From Acaryochloris sp. CCMEE 5410 (GTDB lineage: Bacteria > Cyanobacteriota > Cyanobacteriia > Thermosynechococcales > Thermosynechococcaceae), in contig NZ_AFEJ02000001.1 of assembly GCF_000238775.2 (NCBI RefSeq), positions 3,224,001-3,288,000 on the forward strand: a DNA stretch of 64,000 bases, given 5' to 3'. Positions 17,417 to 26,207 of this stretch are shown piece by piece. How positions within the stretch are numbered: the first letter of the stretch is position 1; every line of letters starts with the position of its first letter. The translations under genes were made by a program, and so were the position numbers. Under the pieces are notes generated by a model, which saw only the letters and a program-made list of their open reading frames with translations, had not been told where the DNA came from and ran no database searches.

Positions 17417-17869
17417 CTGAGATAACAAAGGGAAATCTGGGTGCCGCAAATCAACAGCCTGACTGCTCTACCACACTCTATATAAAGCTTGTGCGTCCGC
17501 TGCAAACCCTTGAGAAACATTTGAACCGAAGCTCGTTTACTCTGACCGTACGCATCACATCAACGAACGGATTGAGAGGATTTGAACGGTAAACTGCATC
17601 TTTATAAGAAGAATTCCTAATGTATCTTAGGGACTCCTTCATGAAAGTCAAAATACTATTCAGATCAACGGCTTGCATTATTAAGCAAGGTTAGGAGATT
17701 ACCCAATGTTGCATTTAGGCCGAATGAAGGAATACAGGGTGTACAGTGCTTAGTGGAACATGATATGGAATGACTATCTAAAGCATTTTTACCTGTGTTT
17801 TGACAACTTATCCAATCTGCACTTAGCTCTATCTAGGTTCATATTGGAGCATCCTTTGAAGAGAACCCC
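17417..17869 (+). other. intergenic region upstream of KaiC-like operon
   Basis: 453 bp without a convincing gene; short frames here lack family features. TTGACA at 17800-17805 is a possible -35, but no good -10 follows at the right spacing. AAGAGAA shortly before 17870 may be the ribosome binding site. The operon promoter should lie here. Confidence 0.35.
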
Positions 17870-18295
17870 ATGAGCCACTCGGGACAACCCCCTGATCAAG
17901 CGAATAACGTTTCTGAAGAAAGCGTACAGGAGCGTGTTGATCAAGCCAAAACCATCGCCCGCAAGGAAGAGGTCATTGAAATTTATGAGGATCTCTTAAA
18001 AACGATTTGGAACCGGATTATGCCCACCCTCGGTCGAGTCACGGTGACCGCCATCATGGAGCGGGCATTAGTACTGACTGCAGAGAAATATCCGGTGATT
18101 CATCACTTGGAAGTCAGGGCAGAGGGGGTTTCATTTGACGTATTGCGCCAACGTCTTGGGGAAGAAGAGAAGCTAGCAATGCGGGACGCTCTTAAGGAGT
18201 TGATTGCCAATTTGATTGATATTCTAGCCATGCTCACAGGAGATATTTTGGTGCAACAACTGCTTAAGGAAATTGAGGGACGACAGCTCATATGA
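17870..18295 (+). CDS. uncharacterised helical protein, first gene of KaiC-like operon
   Basis: 141 residues; I do not recognise it. The N-terminal 25 residues are polar and likely disordered. The rest is almost all helix-forming: KEEVIEIYEDLLKTIWNRI, then GRVTVTAIMERALVLTAEKYPVIHHLEV, then RDALKELIANLIDILAMLTGDILVQQLLKEI. There is no membrane span, cysteine or catalytic motif. It is not KaiA and not KaiB (no thioredoxin-like LKLYVAG pattern). Its stop overlaps the start of the KaiC-like gene by 4 nt (ATGA), so translation is coupled. This suggests a dedicated partner or adaptor of the ATPase. Confidence 0.75.
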   Translation: MSHSGQPPDQANNVSEESVQERVDQAKTIARKEEVIEIYEDLLKTIWNRIMPTLGRVTVTAIMERALVLTAEKYPVIHHLEVRAEGVSFDVLRQRLGEEEKLAMRDALKELIANLIDILAMLTGDILVQQLLKEIEGRQLI

Positions 18296-19956
18296 CAACG
18301 CCACGTGCTCGCAAATCCTTAGGCAAGTTACCCACCCATATTCCCGGTTTAGACCCTATCCTTTCAGGCGGTATTCCCGAACTATCCATCAATATTGTCA
18401 CGGGCCCCCCTGGGGCGGGGAAGACGATTTTTACCCAGCAAATTCTCTATAGCAATGCCAGCCCCGATCGCAAGGCCCTCTATCTCGTCACCCTCTCGGA
18501 ACCGTCCGTCAAGCTGCTCCATTACTTGCAGCGATTTAGTTTTTTTGATGCCGAAAAAGTCGGCAGTGATGTCAATTATCTCGATATTGGTGAAGTGATC
18601 CGGGAAAAGGGTCTGGAAGATGCCACCAATGTGATTGTCAAGCATGTGCAGGAGCACAAGCCGTCAATCGTGGCGATTGATAGTTTTAAGGCCATTCATG
18701 ATATGGCTAAAGATCCGGTTGAAGTCCGTAAGTTTGGTTATGATCTGTCGGTCCAGCTCACCACTTGGGGCGTGACGGCATTACTGATTGGTGAGTACAC
18801 GCCAGAAGAAATTGAGAGTGAACCGATTTTTGCGATCGCAGACGGTATCATCCAACTCCACAATATGCATCAAGGACTGCATTACCAGCGCTACGTGAAC
18901 GTCCTTAAGCTCAGGGGGGAAAGCTACTCAACCGGGCTTCATCCTTTCGACATCGACAATACCGGTCTCACCGTTTATCCCCGGATTAAAACGGTGGAAG
19001 AATCGGGTGAAATTATCCTCAGTCAACGGCAGCGAGTGTCCACAGGGGTGGATGAGCTAGATACGATGCTCGAAGGGGGCGTTCCTCAAGGGTCAGCCAC
19101 GATGGTAGCGGGAGGCGCTGGCACGGGTAAGACACTCTTGGGACTCCATTTAATTACGGCAGGGGTCAAAGCTGGAGAACCCGGCGTCATTGTCACCTTT
19201 CAAGAGAATCCTCAACAGCTGCGGGAGATTGCCTATTCCTTCGGTTGGGATTTGGAAGAGATGGAAAAGCAGGGGCTACTGGTGCATCTTTACAGCTCTC
19301 CCGTGGAACTGCAGCCCGATATCCATGCTGCCCGCGTCAAGGAAGCCGTCAAAAAGGTGGGGGCCAAACGCGTGCTGCTCGATTCTCTGAAAGATATTGA
19401 AATTGCCACCCCGGATAAGGTGCGCTTCAAAGACTATATTTACTCCCTCGTCAACCAATTCAAGTTGCAAGGGGTCACCACCCTACTCACCAATGAAATT
19501 CCCGAAATGTTTGGACCATTTCAATTGAGTGAATACGGCGTCTCATTTGTCGTCGATAATGTGATTTTGCTGCGTTATCTGGAACTAACCGGACGCATGG
19601 GACGGGCGATCAGCATTATGAAGGTGCGGGGGTCCCAACATAGTAAGGAAATTCGCTCCTTTGAAATCACCAATCAGGGCATTCGGATTGACCAGATGGT
19701 CAAAGCTCAGACGGGCGTATTAACGGGAATTCCTGTATTTAGAGAGCGCAATAAAGATCTGCTCTATTTACCAACCAAGGCTCGCTATGTGGTTGAGGTG
19801 TTGCAGGAGAAAGGACTGTCCAGTGCCAATGCCCTGTCTCAACTCACAGGCTTAGGGCTTGAAGATCTCTCCCAGGAGCTAGAAACCCTGAGGGAACAGG
19901 GCATGGTGGTGGTTACGCAAACAGACGATCAGGACCTCTATAAGGCAACGCTATAG
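18292..19956 (+). CDS. KaiC-like ATPase, two RecA domains plus C-terminal helical domain
   Basis: 554 residues. Two tandem KaiC/RecA domains: P-loop 1 GPPGAGKT (K44, T45) and P-loop 2 GGAGTGKT (K280, T281). Walker B-like strands are VAIDS (about 127-131) and VLLDS (about 361-365). The paired catalytic glutamates of KaiC are altered: SE in domain 1 (TLSEPS, about 68-72) and QE in domain 2 (FQENP, about 303-307). At the position of the KaiC phosphosites Ser431/Thr432 it has Ser-Phe (VSF, about 417-419), so only the serine equivalent remains. The last 70 residues (ARYVVEVLQEKGLSSANALSQLTG) look like a winged helix, absent from clock KaiC. It lies 4 nt upstream of the next KaiC-like gene. Probably a signalling ATPase and not the core clock KaiC. 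Confidence 0.9.
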   Translation: MTTPRARKSLGKLPTHIPGLDPILSGGIPELSINIVTGPPGAGKTIFTQQILYSNASPDRKALYLVTLSEPSVKLLHYLQRFSFFDAEKVGSDVNYLDIGEVIREKGLEDATNVIVKHVQEHKPSIVAIDSFKAIHDMAKDPVEVRKFGYDLSVQLTTWGVTALLIGEYTPEEIESEPIFAIADGIIQLHNMHQGLHYQRYVNVLKLRGESYSTGLHPFDIDNTGLTVYPRIKTVEESGEIILSQRQRVSTGVDELDTMLEGGVPQGSATMVAGGAGTGKTLLGLHLITAGVKAGEPGVIVTFQENPQQLREIAYSFGWDLEEMEKQGLLVHLYSSPVELQPDIHAARVKEAVKKVGAKRVLLDSLKDIEIATPDKVRFKDYIYSLVNQFKLQGVTTLLTNEIPEMFGPFQLSEYGVSFVVDNVILLRYLELTGRMGRAISIMKVRGSQHSKEIRSFEITNQGIRIDQMVKAQTGVLTGIPVFRERNKDLLYLPTKARYVVEVLQEKGLSSANALSQLTGLGLEDLSQELETLREQGMVVVTQTDDQDLYKATL

Positions 19957-19960
19957 GGCT

Positions 19961-22099
19961 ATGCCAGAGATTAAACTACTGCCCACGAGTGTTCCCAACC
20001 TAGATGCAGTGTTGGGAGGTGGAATTCCTGCCTATTCCCTCAATGTGATTGCCGGATCACCGGGGAGTGGTAAAACCATTCTGGCCCAGCAGATTCTCTT
20101 TAGCTATATCCAAAATCAGTCCGAAGCCAAAGCCCTGTACTTAAGCACCCTGTCTGAACCTTCCATGAAAGTGGTGCGCTATATGCAGTACTTCAGCTTT
20201 TTTGATGGAGCAGTGTTTGGCGAACGGGTGATTTATCAGGATGTGGGGTCTTTTTTGATTGAACATCCCCTAACCGCCGTTGCCGACCAGATTATGGCAT
20301 TGGTGAATGATCACCGCGCCGAAGTCTTGGTAATCGACTCCTTTAAAGCCATCCATGATTTGGCTAAAGATGAAGGAGATTTCCGCCGTTTTTGCTTTGA
20401 TGTCTCGATTCGTCTGGCCAGTTCTCGCTGTACGTCGTTTCTGGTGAATGAATGTGACCAAACCCTGATTACGAAGAGTACGGAGTTTGCGATCGCAGAC
20501 GGTATCTTCTATCTCTCGATTTCAGAAAGAGCGGGCACCCCTAGCCGTTTCCTCCAGGTTTATAAAATGCGAGGGCGAGATTCCCAGATGGAGCCCTTTC
20601 CATTTTTAATTTCTGATGATGGCATTAAAGTACTGAGTCCGGCTCTAACCCTACGCCGCCGAGAACATAACCTGGAGGTTGAAGAAGACACCCTTTCCAC
20701 GGGGATTAGCGGCCTAGACAATCTGCTCAAAGGGGGCATTCCCTTAGGACGATCACTGATTCTCTCTGGCGTGTCGGGAACGGGCAAAACCACCTTTGCT
20801 CTCCAATTTCTAATTGAAGGAGCCAGTCAGCAAGAACGAGGATTATTACTCTCTTTTGAAGAAACCCGCGATCGCCTCTACCGCAGCGCTATTGGCTTTG
20901 GGTGGGATATAGATCGCTATGAGCAGGAAGGACTCCTTCGAGTCCTGTTTATCCCGCAAACCGATATTCGCATTGAAGAACAGCTAGAACAGCTGATTCA
21001 AGAAGTCGAGAGCTTCCAACCCCGTCGTTTAGTGGTAGACTCCCTCTCTGTGTTTCTGTATCGGGTTCAGGATCCGGCGATTCAACGAGAAAAAACCTTT
21101 CAGCTAGCAACGCTAATGCAGCGGGTTGGTGGCGTTGGTATCCTGATTTCAGATATCCCCGCCAACGATACCCGTCGTTTATCTCGGTTTGGCGTTGAAG
21201 AAACCATCGCCGATGGCACCCTGGTTTTATCCACTGAAATGGTGGGGAAACGACGGGAACGATATCTAGAAATTTTTAAGATGCGGGCCGCGGATTATGT
21301 AGCCGGTCGTCATCGGATGGAGATTACGGATACAGGCATCCAAGTCTTTTATATTAACGATCGTGAACCACCAGAGACCGTTCCTAATATTGCCAGCACT
21401 CCCTTCAGTTTTCAGCCCGTCCAGCCCTTATTTCAGGGTGATTTATCCTTTGAGACCACTTGGCTCGTGCGGGGTGAATCTGGTTTAGGCAAAACGACCC
21501 TTGCCTATCAATTCTTAATGGAAGGGTTAAAGAGCCAAGACTCCGTTTTATATATTGGCGCTGATGTCCCCACCCCTCGGACCCTGAAAGCCCTTGAAGA
21601 GCTGAGTTTTCTTCCTCAACCCTATATAGAATCTGGCCAGCTGCGTCTATTGGATATCTTTGGCTACTCCTCCCATTCCCTCAACATTGAGGATACTGAG
21701 GTGTTTCTCTACAAGCTGGCCCAGCATCTGGATGAGATGCCAAAGCCCTGTCGTGTCATTACGGATTCCCTGACGCCGCTAGCTATCGCTCATTCTCATA
21801 GCGATTTTGTCAGTCTCATCTACCGAAAAAACCGTCTTTTACATCAACCCAGTGTCGTTTTATTTGATATTTTCCTCAAAGGCATCCTAGAACCAGAGTT
21901 GAGATCCAGTCTGGTGAATGCCTACGATATTTCGATTGAACTGTACCGACCCGATTGGGGTGAAATGCACCAGCTGGGCAATTCAGGCTATCCGTCTCTG
22001 CGGATCACGAAGGCCCGGGGGGTCAAAGCGGATACGCGCCCCTATCCCTATCGGATCCGGGATGGCGAAGGTGTTGTGGTTCAAACCGACTATTACTAA
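19961..22099 (+). CDS. KaiC-like ATPase with three P-loop domains
   Basis: 712 residues with three successive RecA/KaiC-type units. The P-loops are AGSPGSGKT (K38), SGVSGTGKT (K276) and RGESGLGKT (K511). Only the second domain keeps the catalytic pair (SFEET, E300-E301). The first has SE (TLSEPS), and the third has no acidic pair at that position (IGADVPT). Walker B-like strands are VLVIDS (about 122-127), LVVDS (about 357-361) and VITDS in domain 3. Domain 1 resembles domain 1 of the upstream gene (LSEPS-K-V, FSFFD, VIDSFKAIHDLAKD), so the two genes are probably related by duplication. Third in the operon after the small helical gene; no KaiB or KaiA is near. The triple architecture is unusual, since KaiC has two units. 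Confidence 0.9.
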   Translation: MPEIKLLPTSVPNLDAVLGGGIPAYSLNVIAGSPGSGKTILAQQILFSYIQNQSEAKALYLSTLSEPSMKVVRYMQYFSFFDGAVFGERVIYQDVGSFLIEHPLTAVADQIMALVNDHRAEVLVIDSFKAIHDLAKDEGDFRRFCFDVSIRLASSRCTSFLVNECDQTLITKSTEFAIADGIFYLSISERAGTPSRFLQVYKMRGRDSQMEPFPFLISDDGIKVLSPALTLRRREHNLEVEEDTLSTGISGLDNLLKGGIPLGRSLILSGVSGTGKTTFALQFLIEGASQQERGLLLSFEETRDRLYRSAIGFGWDIDRYEQEGLLRVLFIPQTDIRIEEQLEQLIQEVESFQPRRLVVDSLSVFLYRVQDPAIQREKTFQLATLMQRVGGVGILISDIPANDTRRLSRFGVEETIADGTLVLSTEMVGKRRERYLEIFKMRAADYVAGRHRMEITDTGIQVFYINDREPPETVPNIASTPFSFQPVQPLFQGDLSFETTWLVRGESGLGKTTLAYQFLMEGLKSQDSVLYIGADVPTPRTLKALEELSFLPQPYIESGQLRLLDIFGYSSHSLNIEDTEVFLYKLAQHLDEMPKPCRVITDSLTPLAIAHSHSDFVSLIYRKNRLLHQPSVVLFDIFLKGILEPELRSSLVNAYDISIELYRPDWGEMHQLGNSGYPSLRITKARGVKADTRPYPYRIRDGEGVVVQTDYY

Positions 22100-22401
22100 A
22101 CAATGGGGCATGATACACCATTGGAAAGCGTTTAGAGGCGTCGGGAATCCCTGTGATGCTTTCTCTTATCAGTTAAGCAATATTTCTTATCCCCAAGATG
22201 CCAGTTAGGTCTCGTAGAATATAAAGCAATAATAAAGAAAATTTCAATCTTTTGTTGAATCTGGAACTCTAAACTGTCTGGAGTATTTCACAAAAGCATG
22301 TTTGTGAATCCTCTAACAGCATTAAGGAATTTCAAGTATCGTCAGTCAATCTCTCTGACTCTATTGCCAGCGACATCGGGTTGATACCTGCAAAGGTCTA
22401 C
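22100..22401 (+). other. intergenic region between KaiC-like gene and histidine kinase
   Basis: About 300 bp with no convincing gene and no clear terminator. Its AT-rich second half (from about 22210) could carry a separate promoter for the kinase. I cannot tell whether the kinase is co-transcribed with the KaiC-like genes. Confidence 0.35.
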
Positions 22402-24039
22402 ATGATGGAACATTCAAGGGAAATAGAGCAATTATCGACGCGGAATGCTGAGCTGGAATTGTTATTGCTCCAGCGAACCTTTGAGCTAGAGATATTGTCT
22501 GAGTTGTCACACCAGGTGAGTTATCTTCTGGGCGATAAAGATTTACTCAGTTTGCTGATCAATAGTCTTGATCGTGTATTACCCATTGATGTTGCCGCTG
22601 GACTGATATCTGTACCGGGTGATCTGCAATTAGTCTTCAATTCCACCCATCCGCTCAGCGATCAGGCTCAAGCTGACATTCGAGAGCGACTGCTGGCTGG
22701 ATTTAGTTTGATGAATGGGGTATCCTCAGCCGAGACGAATGTCTCCTTGCAAAGAAGTAAACCCCATGCAGATTGTCCACCGCTGTATCGCCTGGCATCG
22801 ATGGTTATGGTACCGATGCTGGTGGAAACAACAGGGCAACCCGATCGTCCTGAGACCGTTGGTATGTTGCTGATAGGGGCTACGGCCCCAAATGCCTTTA
22901 CCCAAAGTCATCTTCGTTTTCTGTTCACTGTCGCCAATCAAGGAGCCGTATCTTTAGGGCGGTTACGATCGCATCTCTCCGCTGAGAAACATCGCCTAGC
23001 GCAATTCACCACCTATTTTTCTGAGGGGGTCGTTATTGTTAGTCGAGAGGGCCATATTCTCTTCACCAATGAAGTTGCTCAACAACTGTTGCCACAATTA
23101 GCTGATATTGACTACCAACAGCGCCTGCAAAACTTTGCCCAAAAGCCCCTCGAAGAATGGCTTTTGGGGGATGAACCTCGACTGTGGCAGGATATCCCCC
23201 GTCTGGATCTGACTCAGCCGCCATTAGAAGTCATGGTGCAGCAATCGACCCCACTCTCCACCACCGATTGTTATACCCTGATTATTCGAGAGGTTCGGGC
23301 GACCGCAAACCTGGAACAACTGAAAGATCAGCTGATTGCCACCATTAGCCATGAACTCCGTACTCCTTTGACCCTGATTTACGCCCCTTTAGAAATGCTG
23401 GCCAGTGGGTGTATCGGGAACTTAACGGATGAAGGGTTGCAATTGTTAGACATTGCAATTCAAAGTGCCAACCAGCTCAAGCTTCTGATCGAAAATATCT
23501 TGGAGTTGAGCCAGCTAGAATCTGGCTTGATTACCATGCAGTTTGAACCTTGCAATGCCAAGGTGTTGGTGGAGAAAGCGATCGCTTTGATGGCTAATAC
23601 AGCAGAACAGGCAGAGATCAGGATAGAACAGCAAGCCTCCCAATCTGAGGTAAGAAGCAACTTAGCCATTGAGCCTTTTACTTGCTGGGTAGATCCCGAT
23701 TATATTTTGCAAGCCTTTAAACATTTACTGGATAATGCCATCAAATTTTCTGCCCCAGAAAGTCGAGTGACCCTTGAAGTGGTGGATCAAGCCTCCTGCA
23801 TTTTGTTCAGGGTGATCGATGAAGGGATGGGAATCTCCGCTGAACAGCTCTCCTATATTTTTGCTCGCTTCCAGCAAGGAGATAGCTCCAGATGTCGCAC
23901 TTACGATGGGATGGGGATTGGTCTTGCTATTTGCGATCGCATTATCCATCTGCATGGAGGCGAAATTTGGGCTGAAAGTGTCCTGCAACAAGGCAGTACA
24001 TTTTCCTTCACCCTACCCAAAGCCCGCCAAAGCCTTTAA
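22402..24039 (+). CDS. sensor histidine kinase, GAF-PAS-HisKA-HATPase, no membrane span
   Basis: About 545 residues. The start is ATG 22402 (or the adjacent ATG 22405); a TTG at 22381 is also in frame. An N-terminal coiled coil (EIEQLSTRNAELELLLLQRTFELEILSEL) leads to a GAF domain (about 35-195), then a PAS-like segment (FTTYFSEGVVIVSREGHILFTNEVAQQLL, about 205-300). HisKA follows with the phosphoacceptor H in TISHELRTPLTLI (about residue 317). The ATPase domain has N-box HLLDNAIKFS, G1 DEGMGIS and G2 GMGIGLAIC. No transmembrane segment, so it is a soluble kinase. No response regulator is adjacent. Its stop overlaps the convergent kinase gene by 4 nt. Confidence 0.9.
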   Translation: MMEHSREIEQLSTRNAELELLLLQRTFELEILSELSHQVSYLLGDKDLLSLLINSLDRVLPIDVAAGLISVPGDLQLVFNSTHPLSDQAQADIRERLLAGFSLMNGVSSAETNVSLQRSKPHADCPPLYRLASMVMVPMLVETTGQPDRPETVGMLLIGATAPNAFTQSHLRFLFTVANQGAVSLGRLRSHLSAEKHRLAQFTTYFSEGVVIVSREGHILFTNEVAQQLLPQLADIDYQQRLQNFAQKPLEEWLLGDEPRLWQDIPRLDLTQPPLEVMVQQSTPLSTTDCYTLIIREVRATANLEQLKDQLIATISHELRTPLTLIYAPLEMLASGCIGNLTDEGLQLLDIAIQSANQLKLLIENILELSQLESGLITMQFEPCNAKVLVEKAIALMANTAEQAEIRIEQQASQSEVRSNLAIEPFTCWVDPDYILQAFKHLLDNAIKFSAPESRVTLEVVDQASCILFRVIDEGMGISAEQLSYIFARFQQGDSSRCRTYDGMGIGLAICDRIIHLHGGEIWAESVLQQGSTFSFTLPKARQSL

Positions 24040-26207
24040 GGGGTCTGCACGTTGATGGGGAAGCGAATCGTCACGGTCGTGCCTTGGTTCACTTGCGACT
24101 CAATCTGAATCTGACCTCCGTGGAGTTCCACGAACTTTTTGGCAATACTCAAGCCCAACCCCGACCCCTGAATCACATCGACATTCTCCGCCCGAAAGAA
24201 GGCTTCAAATACCTCAGCTTGAGCCTTGGATGGAATACCAATGCCTTCGTCTACAACACAAAGGACAGCCTCTTCTGCGCCATAGGTGAGCTGAACCTTG
24301 ATCGAACCGCCATCGGGAGAGTACTTAATCGCATTCGTGAGGAGATTGGTGAGAATCTGGCGCAACAGCTTGGGATCCGCTGACAGAGGGATACCATCGT
24401 CCTCACAGATAAACAGTAGCGTATGGTTATGGTTGCTCAACAATTGGTGCTCATCTATCAGCCGCTGACAAAACCCTTTTAAGTCCAATTCAATGGGTGT
24501 AAAGTCCACCCCCCCGGATTCTGCCTGCTCGATTAAGAGCATATCGTCCACCAGCTCAGTCATATAACGAGTGGCCTGCTGAATGCGTCCTAAAAAATGC
24601 TTTCTTTGATCAGGATTCAGCTGTTCTCTCTTCGTTTCCAAAAGTTCAGCCGCCATGTGAATCACGGCCAGCGGACTGCGATACTCATGGGAGACGGTAC
24701 GCACCACACGAGATTTAAGGGCAACTAACTCACGAGCATTGTTCAGGGCCTGTTGAATTTTGGCTTCAAAGCGTTTGCGATCGCTAATGTCTCGAATGAC
24801 CACCACCCAGTAGTCTAAGTGTGGATCCAGGGAAATCGGTTTAATGGTTGCCTCAAAGACCCGATCAGGATGGTCCAGTAATGTTACTTCTCGGCAATCT
24901 GGATCATCCAGTGCGCAGTTCATCAACTCTTCTAAGGTCTTATTACCCAATTGCCGTAAGCATTTATCCGTCCCCATTTCCGACAAGAGGGCGAGATAGT
25001 TCTGGGCTTTGCCGTTTGCTAGCACCACGCGACGTTTTTGATCCAGCAACAAGACGCCATCCGTCAGATTCTTGATCACCTGAGCCAATTGGTCGATGGC
25101 GAGTCGCGATCGTAGCCTTTGGATCAACATAGCCGCATGGCTCGCTGCAAAATAAAGCAGACGAACATGCTCTTCATTAAACTGCGCCGCTTGCTCAGCA
25201 CCAACAAACAACAGCCCAATCACCTGGGGTTCTTGCTCAGTGGGCACAATGAGCGGCACAAACAATTGGGATTGGATCGCGCCCAAGGGGGACGCTTGGC
25301 CATCAATCACCTGGGGATCTAAAATATCAACGTTGAATTGGGCTGCCTGCAAATCCACGTTGAATTGGGCTGCCTGCAAATCCACCCCACTCAGATAGGC
25401 CAGATTTTTGAGGATGGTGTTCCGAATACTTTGTCCAATGGCGCGGGGAAGAGGACGATTGGTTTTAATAAAAAACTTACACTGAGGACGATGTTGATGC
25501 TGTCGTTTGGCAAAATGGCCTCGCAACACATCATCCATCCGGGTCAAAAAGACGCCCCCAGAAATATCGTAGGGAATCGTCGAGCAGACATCTTCTAAAA
25601 TCGATTGGAGTAACGCTTCATCATCATGGGCAAGTTTACCTTGCAGGGAAATATCGTACAGAATTTGGGATGAAACCGTGGTCTCCAACTTCTGGCTTTC
25701 TAAATCAGCCTGCAGGGTTTGGAGGGCCAACAGTTGCTGACTTAAAAAGGAGTCGGCCTGAGGGAGTGGAGGGTCAAGGATCGTCTCGGCAGCGAGGATC
25801 TCTTGCTCCATGGCTGTTGCTGGCGAACCATCTTGGTCCAGGAGGGTGCCGATGCCATAGGTTAATTGTTGTTCGTCTTGCCACACCTGCCACGCCACAC
25901 CACGAGACCCACCGTCTTTATGCAAATGGCAATTCTGAAACTGAACGGTTTGCCCTGCCTTGACCGTTTGATAGGCAGCGATGGTGGCTGGTTGAGTCTG
26001 AGGATCTACGGAATTCAGAAAGGAGTCAGCCATTAGCTCTGACAGAGACCATCCCAAGGACTGGGTCCAAGCCTGATTCAATTGCACAAACGAAAAGTCG
26101 GGACAGATAATGCAACATAAATGAGGAGACAGCTCAAAAAAGGCTTGGAAAGCATTAGCTGCCATTGCCTGATCGTTGCGTATCGTGTGGGCTTGAGAAA
26201 CGGACAT
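24036..26207 (-). CDS. sensor histidine kinase, PAS-GAF-PAS-HisKA-HATPase
   Basis: 723 residues, no membrane span. An N-terminal PAS (FFELSPHLCCIICPDFSFVQLNQAWTQSLGWS) is followed by a GAF domain (about 190-375), a second PAS (QVIKNLTDGVLLLDQKRRVVLANGKAQNYL), then HisKA with H in RTVSHEYRSPLAVI (about residue 506). The ATPase domain is complete: N-box LLTNAIKYSPDGG, G1 DEGIGIP, G2 GSGLGLSIAKKF. The GAF domain contains an in-frame duplication of nine residues (see the repeat entry). It shares the GAF-PAS-kinase plan with the convergent kinase, with which its stop overlaps by 4 nt. No response regulator is adjacent. Confidence 0.9.
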   Translation of the reverse strand: MSVSQAHTIRNDQAMAANAFQAFFELSPHLCCIICPDFSFVQLNQAWTQSLGWSLSELMADSFLNSVDPQTQPATIAAYQTVKAGQTVQFQNCHLHKDGGSRGVAWQVWQDEQQLTYGIGTLLDQDGSPATAMEQEILAAETILDPPLPQADSFLSQQLLALQTLQADLESQKLETTVSSQILYDISLQGKLAHDDEALLQSILEDVCSTIPYDISGGVFLTRMDDVLRGHFAKRQHQHRPQCKFFIKTNRPLPRAIGQSIRNTILKNLAYLSGVDLQAAQFNVDLQAAQFNVDILDPQVIDGQASPLGAIQSQLFVPLIVPTEQEPQVIGLLFVGAEQAAQFNEEHVRLLYFAASHAAMLIQRLRSRLAIDQLAQVIKNLTDGVLLLDQKRRVVLANGKAQNYLALLSEMGTDKCLRQLGNKTLEELMNCALDDPDCREVTLLDHPDRVFEATIKPISLDPHLDYWVVVIRDISDRKRFEAKIQQALNNARELVALKSRVVRTVSHEYRSPLAVIHMAAELLETKREQLNPDQRKHFLGRIQQATRYMTELVDDMLLIEQAESGGVDFTPIELDLKGFCQRLIDEHQLLSNHNHTLLFICEDDGIPLSADPKLLRQILTNLLTNAIKYSPDGGSIKVQLTYGAEEAVLCVVDEGIGIPSKAQAEVFEAFFRAENVDVIQGSGLGLSIAKKFVELHGGQIQIESQVNQGTTVTIRFPINVQTP
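25332..25385. repeat. 27-bp exact tandem duplication inside kinase gene
   Basis: Two identical 27-bp units (25332-25358 and 25359-25385) lie head to tail and encode the nine residues VDLQAAQFN twice in the GAF region. The length is a multiple of three, so the frame is kept. The absence of any mismatch suggests a recent slippage event or selection. Confidence 0.95.

Follow-up and report, generated by a model that had tools for sequence, protein, structure and literature searches.

Histidine kinase genes next to a KaiC-like gene, in contexts without kaiB, were described in 2011 in a study of Ramlibacter tataouinensis, which reports co-transcription of kaiC and kinase by reverse transcription PCR in one such context (PMC3164672). 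The study also cites the KaiC-binding domain of the clock, a separate protein in KaiB and the N-terminal part of a kinase in SasA. For myxobacteria, another source states that kaiA is absent, that kaiB is mostly absent and that the modulators of KaiC are yet to be identified (PMC11832031), and in a KaiBC system C-terminal tails are described as KaiA-independent regulators (PMC10076222). Here we describe a locus of Acaryochloris sp. CCMEE 5410 in which a gene for a small helical protein, SMALL, precedes the genes of two KaiC-like ATPases, K2 and K3, and of a histidine kinase, HK1. It lies in a 64-kb window (the whole stretch of DNA analysed, G000:C1:3224001-3288000) of a genome of 8.09 Mb in 23 contigs. 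The SMALL-KaiC pair is widely conserved, and the SMALL, K2 and K3 genes are tightly coupled. We read the locus, with a probability of roughly 0.55, as a KaiC-like ATPase signalling operon in which SMALL is a helical adaptor coupling K2/K3 rings to two-component signalling.

The locus shares RecA-like KaiC ATPases with the KaiABC-SasA clock, and SMALL occurs both as a separate protein and N-terminal to a GAF kinase (locus L185), just as the KaiC-binding domain of the clock is separate in KaiB and part of a kinase in SasA. Unlike the clock, however, the five locus proteins scanned with Pfam hold no KaiA, KaiB or SasA domain, no relation of the helical SMALL to KaiA could be detected, and the ATPases lack the second phosphosite and the KaiB-binding insertion. 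The R. tataouinensis type also has a KaiC-like gene followed by a histidine kinase gene without KaiA or KaiB, but the N-terminus of its conserved kinases is likened to KaiB/SasA, and in the available text hypothetical proteins appear just in a supplementary figure legend, with no small helical partner described (PMC3164672). The myxobacterial homologues are likewise KaiC-like proteins without KaiA and mostly without KaiB; that work, as far as its accessible part goes, treats KaiC itself (PMC11832031), whereas we find a partner family directly 5' in many such loci. KaiC beside a kinase without KaiB is already known and the SMALL family is the new element, no description of it as a KaiC partner having been found in the open-access literature, a scope that leaves most subscription journals outside. 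Archaeal KaiC-like ATPases are reportedly signalling hubs, the subject of work by Makarova et al. in 2017; in it those ATPases too are reportedly tied to signalling and output domains, the difference being that the work is, by its title, archaeal. It is cited in PMC5847659, PMC13286277 and PMC6393860 (in the last, within the reference list).

Gene arrangement at the locus

The locus and its convergent neighbour, HK2, comprise the following features, given by position in the window and strand.

17870-18295, +: SMALL, a helical protein of 141 aa from an open reading frame (ORF) call, of a family without Pfam or NCBIfam match; conserved core at residues 32-133
18292-19956, +: K2, a KaiC-like ATPase of 554 aa with two PF06745 domains, an A-loop-like GVLTGIP and a predicted C-terminal winged helix
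19684-19953, +: the A-loop-like motif and putative winged-helix tail of K2, from a tail alignment, Pfam matches and a profile search
19961-22099, +: K3, a KaiC-like ATPase of 712 aa with three PF06745 domains, the third of which has its P-loop and has lost the catalytic glutamates
22381-24039, +: HK1, a histidine kinase read as soluble, 552 aa from a TTG, with a weak GAF match, HisKA and HATPase_c; a plausible member of the module
24036-26207, -: HK2, a convergent PAS-GAF-PAS histidine kinase and distant paralogue of HK1

A preliminary description of this DNA had given the order of the four genes, with a 4-nt overlap between SMALL and K2 and a 4-nt gap between K2 and K3, and the ORF calls at 17870-24039 bear this out. 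Its two-domain and three-P-loop KaiC-like ATPases were confirmed, the proteins having two and three PF06745 matches and two and three P-loops, respectively, and its view that the partners are others than KaiA and KaiB agrees with the Pfam matches of the five locus proteins scanned, among which neither family occurs (for K2 and K3, among the best 25 families). The winged-helix tail of K2 and the convergent HK2 are additional to what it described. HK1 has an alternative start, an ATG at 22402. Predicted promoters (7, with 9.0 expected) and terminators (6, with 7.2 expected) in 17420-24400 were at or below chance, and are therefore evidence neither for nor against an operon.

The true kaiABC genes, supposed from the outset to lie elsewhere in the genome, were compared and do sit elsewhere, the kaiA-kaiB-kaiC cluster being on contig C2 (~1,030,950-1,033,840), with all three genes confirmed by Pfam and KaiC also by NCBIfam. 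A further KaiC-like gene of this genome at C1 ~508,000 (L021:2252-9878, +; C1 ~503,000-511,000) has as its neighbours a kinase-bearing protein of 1510 aa, a receiver-like one (below the Pfam cut-off) and another kinase.

SMALL accompanies KaiC-like ATPases in many phyla

With an alignment covering the first KaiC domain we scanned genomes from 84,980 species and, of 198 relatives, retained the best 80, the loci being picked by their ATPase alone; a profile iterated on their ORFs then served to locate SMALL. All three profiles (SMALL, KaiC and kinase) came from few sequences, that of SMALL from the same loci that were counted, and the ORF caller was naive. SMALL lay directly upstream of the KaiC-like gene in 47 of the 80 loci (L081 is counted as such here and in the tree below), was fused to it in two and lay directly downstream in one; 30 had none, some of these being cut by contig ends or frameshifted (L033). 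At 41 of the 51 SMALL-then-KaiC junctions (some loci have two) the genes share a 4-nt in-frame overlap. Judged by record titles and tree labels, the pairs span twelve phyla, several of them represented by metagenome bins only, and isolates carrying them include Myxococcus, Corallococcus, Massilia, Alienimonas and Moorena. Loci of many phyla thus strongly support the initial proposal that the small gene belongs with KaiC-like ATPases.

On a first-domain tree with 76 labelled loci (L033, L062, L089 and L040 of the 80 are omitted), the SMALL label was clustered, with 7 changes against 22.9 when shuffled. SMALL and KaiC distances were correlated (r 0.72 over 41 non-redundant pairs, with none of 2000 permutations as high), a value for which co-inheritance alone would suffice. 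A histidine kinase was present directly 3' of the ATPase run in 24 of the 44 SMALL-bearing loci uncut by a contig end, "directly" meaning a start no more than 600 nt ahead of, or 400 nt beyond, the end of the run; kinases in the far flanks of the 80 loci (>3 kb from any KaiC or SMALL) numbered 7 in 416 kb. In the 30 loci without SMALL, a kinase was directly downstream in two and directly upstream in three. Three actinobacterial loci without SMALL (L044, L054 and L058) have a histidine kinase directly 5' of the ATPase.

The SMALL family has no recognised relatives in the databases searched

The SMALL of the window had no match in Pfam, NCBIfam, PADLOC or PHROG, and for 53 members of the family no listed family (25/30 Pfam families and 12 NCBIfam families) matched more than one member; PF07688, the KaiA family, was not among the 25/30 Pfam families. 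No solved structure related to SMALL by sequence was found. An AlphaFold model from the 53 sequences is helical with one hairpin (mean predicted local distance difference test score, pLDDT, 78; 87-95 in the core blocks), and fold searches with it returned nothing meaningful (Foldseek best E 3.1; VIA rows Z <=5.5), KaiA, KaiB and SasA being absent from the structure matches listed, an absence that carries no weight.

Several candidate identities were set aside. The helix pattern had prompted a comparison with KaiA, for which hhalign gave a probability of 0.2% against 17 similar KaiA C-domains, taken from 30 KaiA loci (a weak test), with no PDB match by sequence or fold. A role in defence was rejected, the PADLOC matches of K2, K3 and one myxobacterial KaiC being P-loop similarities (AbiO, mad8 and others), those of HK1 being kinase-type and the two SMALL proteins checked having none; PHROG gave no phage family for three SMALL proteins. 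The structure of a natural SMALL-KaiC fusion, predicted without an alignment, reached pLDDT 40 and was not used.

SMALL also adjoins, and is fused to, two-component proteins

Reverse searches in samples of three phyla gave 64 SMALL matches, of which 62 were examined and 56 were beside, or fused to, a KaiC, a kinase or a receiver. The 28 matches in Myxococcota (25 of 146 genomes) comprised 18 beside KaiC, nine directly before a GAF kinase and one fused to a GAF kinase. Chloroflexota had 32 (22 of 201 genomes): 12 next to KaiC, 12 next to a kinase (which precedes SMALL in L242 and in L235 is broken and 0.8 kb off), one receiver fusion, five in other settings and two with no locus. The five are the weak matches L237 and L241, L161 with a convergent kinase, L243 and L238; the matches of L162 and L238 are probably spurious. 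Counts for these two phyla are lower bounds, at most 25 and 18 candidates, respectively, having been scored per genome, and three matches of each phylum were already among the earlier loci. In Cyanobacteriota, SMALL was found in 4 of 373 genomes with the profile and in 4 of 386 with a single sequence, three beside KaiC and one alone (G008); the SMALL of G044, on a GC-rich 6.4-kb contig, is possibly a contaminant, the contamination of that bin being 7%. A search of 18 genomes, biased because these were chosen for their KaiC loci, gave 26 matches, 24 of them beside or fused to KaiC, and three of the five outside those KaiC loci were beside KaiC.

In Myxococcota and Chloroflexota, 21 SMALL genes adjoin a kinase and have no KaiC in the 1.5 kb inspected, and at two kinase-linked loci there is none in the surrounding 17-18 kb. 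The kinase that follows SMALL without KaiC in L172 is a full-length relative (33%) of the kinases that follow SMALL-KaiC, and in wider stretches of L211 and L212 the genes of SMALL, KaiC and a kinase follow one another. Loci L171-L179 and L226-L236 have GAF histidine kinases next to SMALL and likewise no KaiC within the 1.5 kb inspected; of the 11 Chloroflexota loci L226-L236, 10 have an AAA-type ATPase ORF upstream (one by Pfam, the others by eye). Two Elusimicrobiota loci carry SMALL and KaiC in one frame, L185 has SMALL in one frame N-terminal to a GAF kinase, and L223:1471-3335 (-) is a receiver fused to a C-terminal SMALL, whose neighbour is a GAF-PAS-HD-domain protein and no histidine kinase. 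The N-terminal extensions of five SMALL ORFs (L039, L091, L072, L034 and L055) contained no credible Pfam domain, are probably the result of over-long ORFs and were not counted as fusions.

SMALL thus occurs by itself, ahead of KaiC, ahead of a kinase and C-terminal to a receiver, most of its other genes being neighbours of a KaiC or kinase gene, and is therefore most simply taken to be an interaction domain between KaiC-like ATPases and two-component parts. It might instead act on the KaiC-like ATPase only, in the manner of KaiA, by opening the A-loop and accelerating nucleotide exchange, with kinases merely as frequent neighbours. We consider this unlikely: the tight pairing with KaiC-like genes and the A-loop-like GVLTGxP motif of K2 would suit such a role, but not the 21 kinase neighbours with no KaiC in 1.5 kb, the two loci with none in 17-18 kb or the SMALL fused to a kinase, and SMALL has no profile similarity to the KaiA C-domain in the comparison with just 17 KaiA sequences described above.

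The KaiC-like ATPases K2 and K3

Both ATPases belong to PF06745 (KaiC), with 296 bits for K2 and 353 bits for K3 at a cut-off of 26.6. Neither reached the clock KaiC models, K2 scoring 204.7 of 546 with TIGR02655 and 279.6 of 408 with NF006799, and K3 scoring 176.5 and 250.8, while the genome's own KaiC, used as a control, passed both (1057.7 and 822.4, respectively). Ser431 and Thr432 are the two adjacent phosphosites of clock KaiC; aligned with the genome's own KaiC, the last domain of K2 keeps the Ser431 equivalent and has Phe in the place of Thr432, and domain 2 of K3 has Glu-Thr at this position. The insertion in the first KaiC domain through which the clock protein binds KaiB was present in CI of the genome's KaiC and in no K2 or K3 domain in the alignment.

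The C-terminus of K2 carries GVLTGIP, an A-loop-like motif (GVLTGxP), and then a tail of ~70 residues. Tails of this type align in 22 relatives from several phyla, 13 of which match TrmB (E <=0.1, best 3.1e-9) and 13 MarR_2, and the tail profile picks up solved transcription regulators (best E 1.3e-6); the tail of the window K2 itself has just two weak winged-helix matches, with E 0.04. Judged by these aligned winged-helix-like tails, K2-type proteins are KaiC-winged-helix fusions, and DNA binding by a KaiC-like protein through such a tail is possible. On the same sequence evidence K2 does not belong to the KaiABC clock, because it has a winged-helix tail, no second phosphosite and no KaiB-binding insertion. 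K2 and K3 fall on different branches of the first-domain tree and, as far as the loci reach, the K2 type accompanies SMALL without K3 in Symploca and Prochloraceae, and the K3 type does so without K2 in Microcoleus and Ammonifex.

The kinases and the distribution of the module in the genus

The preliminary description had called HK1 a soluble GAF-PAS kinase. The best 19-residue Kyte-Doolittle mean is 1.4 and HK1 has no long hydrophobic segment, so that a soluble protein is a reasonable reading. The GAF-PAS part is weaker: Pfam calls HisKA (315-382) and HATPase_c (438-548), a GAF below threshold (21 bits vs a cut-off of 28.6) and no PAS, although NCBIfam models of PAS-bearing kinases align from residue ~180-200 onward. 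No KaiB-like (SasA-type) N-terminal domain was found among the 6 Pfam matches of HK1 up to E 1. HK2 is a paralogue of nearly all of HK1, with 25% identity, and its membership of the module is unclear. By eye, the HK2 protein has a short tandem repeat (VDLQAAQFN, twice).

Within the genus, SMALL is present in three of seven genomes (G000, G387 and G388), HK1 in G000 and G387 (E <= 1e-60), and HK2 in G000 and G387, with a 51% relative in G388. G387 keeps the gene order unchanged between ribF and trmFO, and the module of G388 runs through SMALL, K2 and the start of K3, where the contig ends. Since the other four genomes (G386, G389, G390 and G391, three of them <90% complete) showed neither SMALL nor any close match to K2 or K3, this genus probably carries the module as an accessory trait. 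In Moorena, the place of HK1 after the module is taken by a Cache/GAF protein. Membership of HK1 in the module is plausible: that a kinase is the partner, as first proposed, gains from the kinases that recur 3' of SMALL-KaiC in other phyla and loses from the presence of HK1 in just two of seven genus genomes, and conservation beside KaiC-like genes in relatives holds for SMALL and not for HK1 in other cyanobacterial genera.

These distributions also bear on whether the unit is SMALL-K2-K3 alone, an ATP-dependent DNA-binding regulator acting via the K2 winged helix, with HK1 and HK2 as accidental neighbours. Such a unit would account for the winged-helix-like tails in 22 aligned relatives, for the modules of Moorena, Symploca and Prochloraceae, which have no same-strand kinase beside them, and for G388, where HK1 was not found. 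It leaves unexplained, however, the kinases that directly follow in 24 of 44 uncut loci with SMALL and the full gene order kept in G387, and we regard it as improbable.

Discussion

Taken together, the surveys suggest that SMALL probably connects KaiC-like ATPases with sensor kinases, a link not recognised before. If SMALL is the adaptor of a signalling operon, the N-terminal part of the kinase would sense a cytoplasmic signal, and SMALL, docked both to the ATPase and to the kinase or its receiver, would signal the state of one partner to the other; a DNA-binding output would come from the K2 winged helix, which lies beyond the place of the A-loop in clock KaiC. Ring assembly, physical contact between the proteins, the direction of signalling, DNA binding and the role of HK1 as the partner at this locus are all parts of the proposal that we infer.

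A number of observations weigh against this adaptor model. At the locus itself, a gap of ~300 nt separates K3 from HK1, HK1 was not found in G388 (82% complete) and it is absent from the module in the other cyanobacterial genera seen. Thirty of the 80 KaiC-like loci have no SMALL, and an actinobacterial clade lacks it in all 19 of its tree rows, with 48 of the 57 other rows having it. The SMALL of G008 is solitary (L016:9566-10000, +), with no KaiC for ~10 kb on either side, and the only match of the K3 first domain in that genome is weak, to one KaiC-like gene (22-29%). The genomes with SMALL-kinase pairs hold KaiC-like genes elsewhere (several in G564 and G514, one, at 27%, in G477), and the pairs are therefore no proof of a KaiC-free function. 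As for the fusions, both of those with KaiC have methionines before the KaiC part, making two separate products possible, and those with a kinase and with a receiver are single cases. Finally, a SMALL-kinase correlation beyond KaiC was rejected as not robust, the partial r of 0.40 (KaiC constant, 18 loci) falling to 0.09 without one 7-locus clade.

That the locus is a timekeeper, an hourglass or oscillator of KaiC-like ATPases in which SMALL replaces KaiA and KaiB, is highly improbable, since in K2 neither the second phosphosite nor the insertion for KaiB binding is present, Glu occupies the Ser431 position in K3 domain 2, both proteins score far below the clock KaiC models that the genome's own KaiC passes and the genome has its own kaiABC, even though K2 retains the Ser431 equivalent (with Thr432 replaced by Phe) and, according to work cited in PMC11832031, a circadian period can be obtained with Ser431 alone.

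For the wider family, we give even odds to SMALL being, after KaiA and KaiB, a third class of KaiC partner, one that in about twelve phyla links ATPase rings to kinases and receivers. If so, many KaiC homologues without KaiA and KaiB would share a common dedicated partner, and the coupling of KaiC-type ATPases to two-component signalling would not be confined to the KaiB/SasA route. Outside clocks, KaiC homologues are common and mostly lack an assigned function, and a conserved, unannotated partner offers a direct handle on them.

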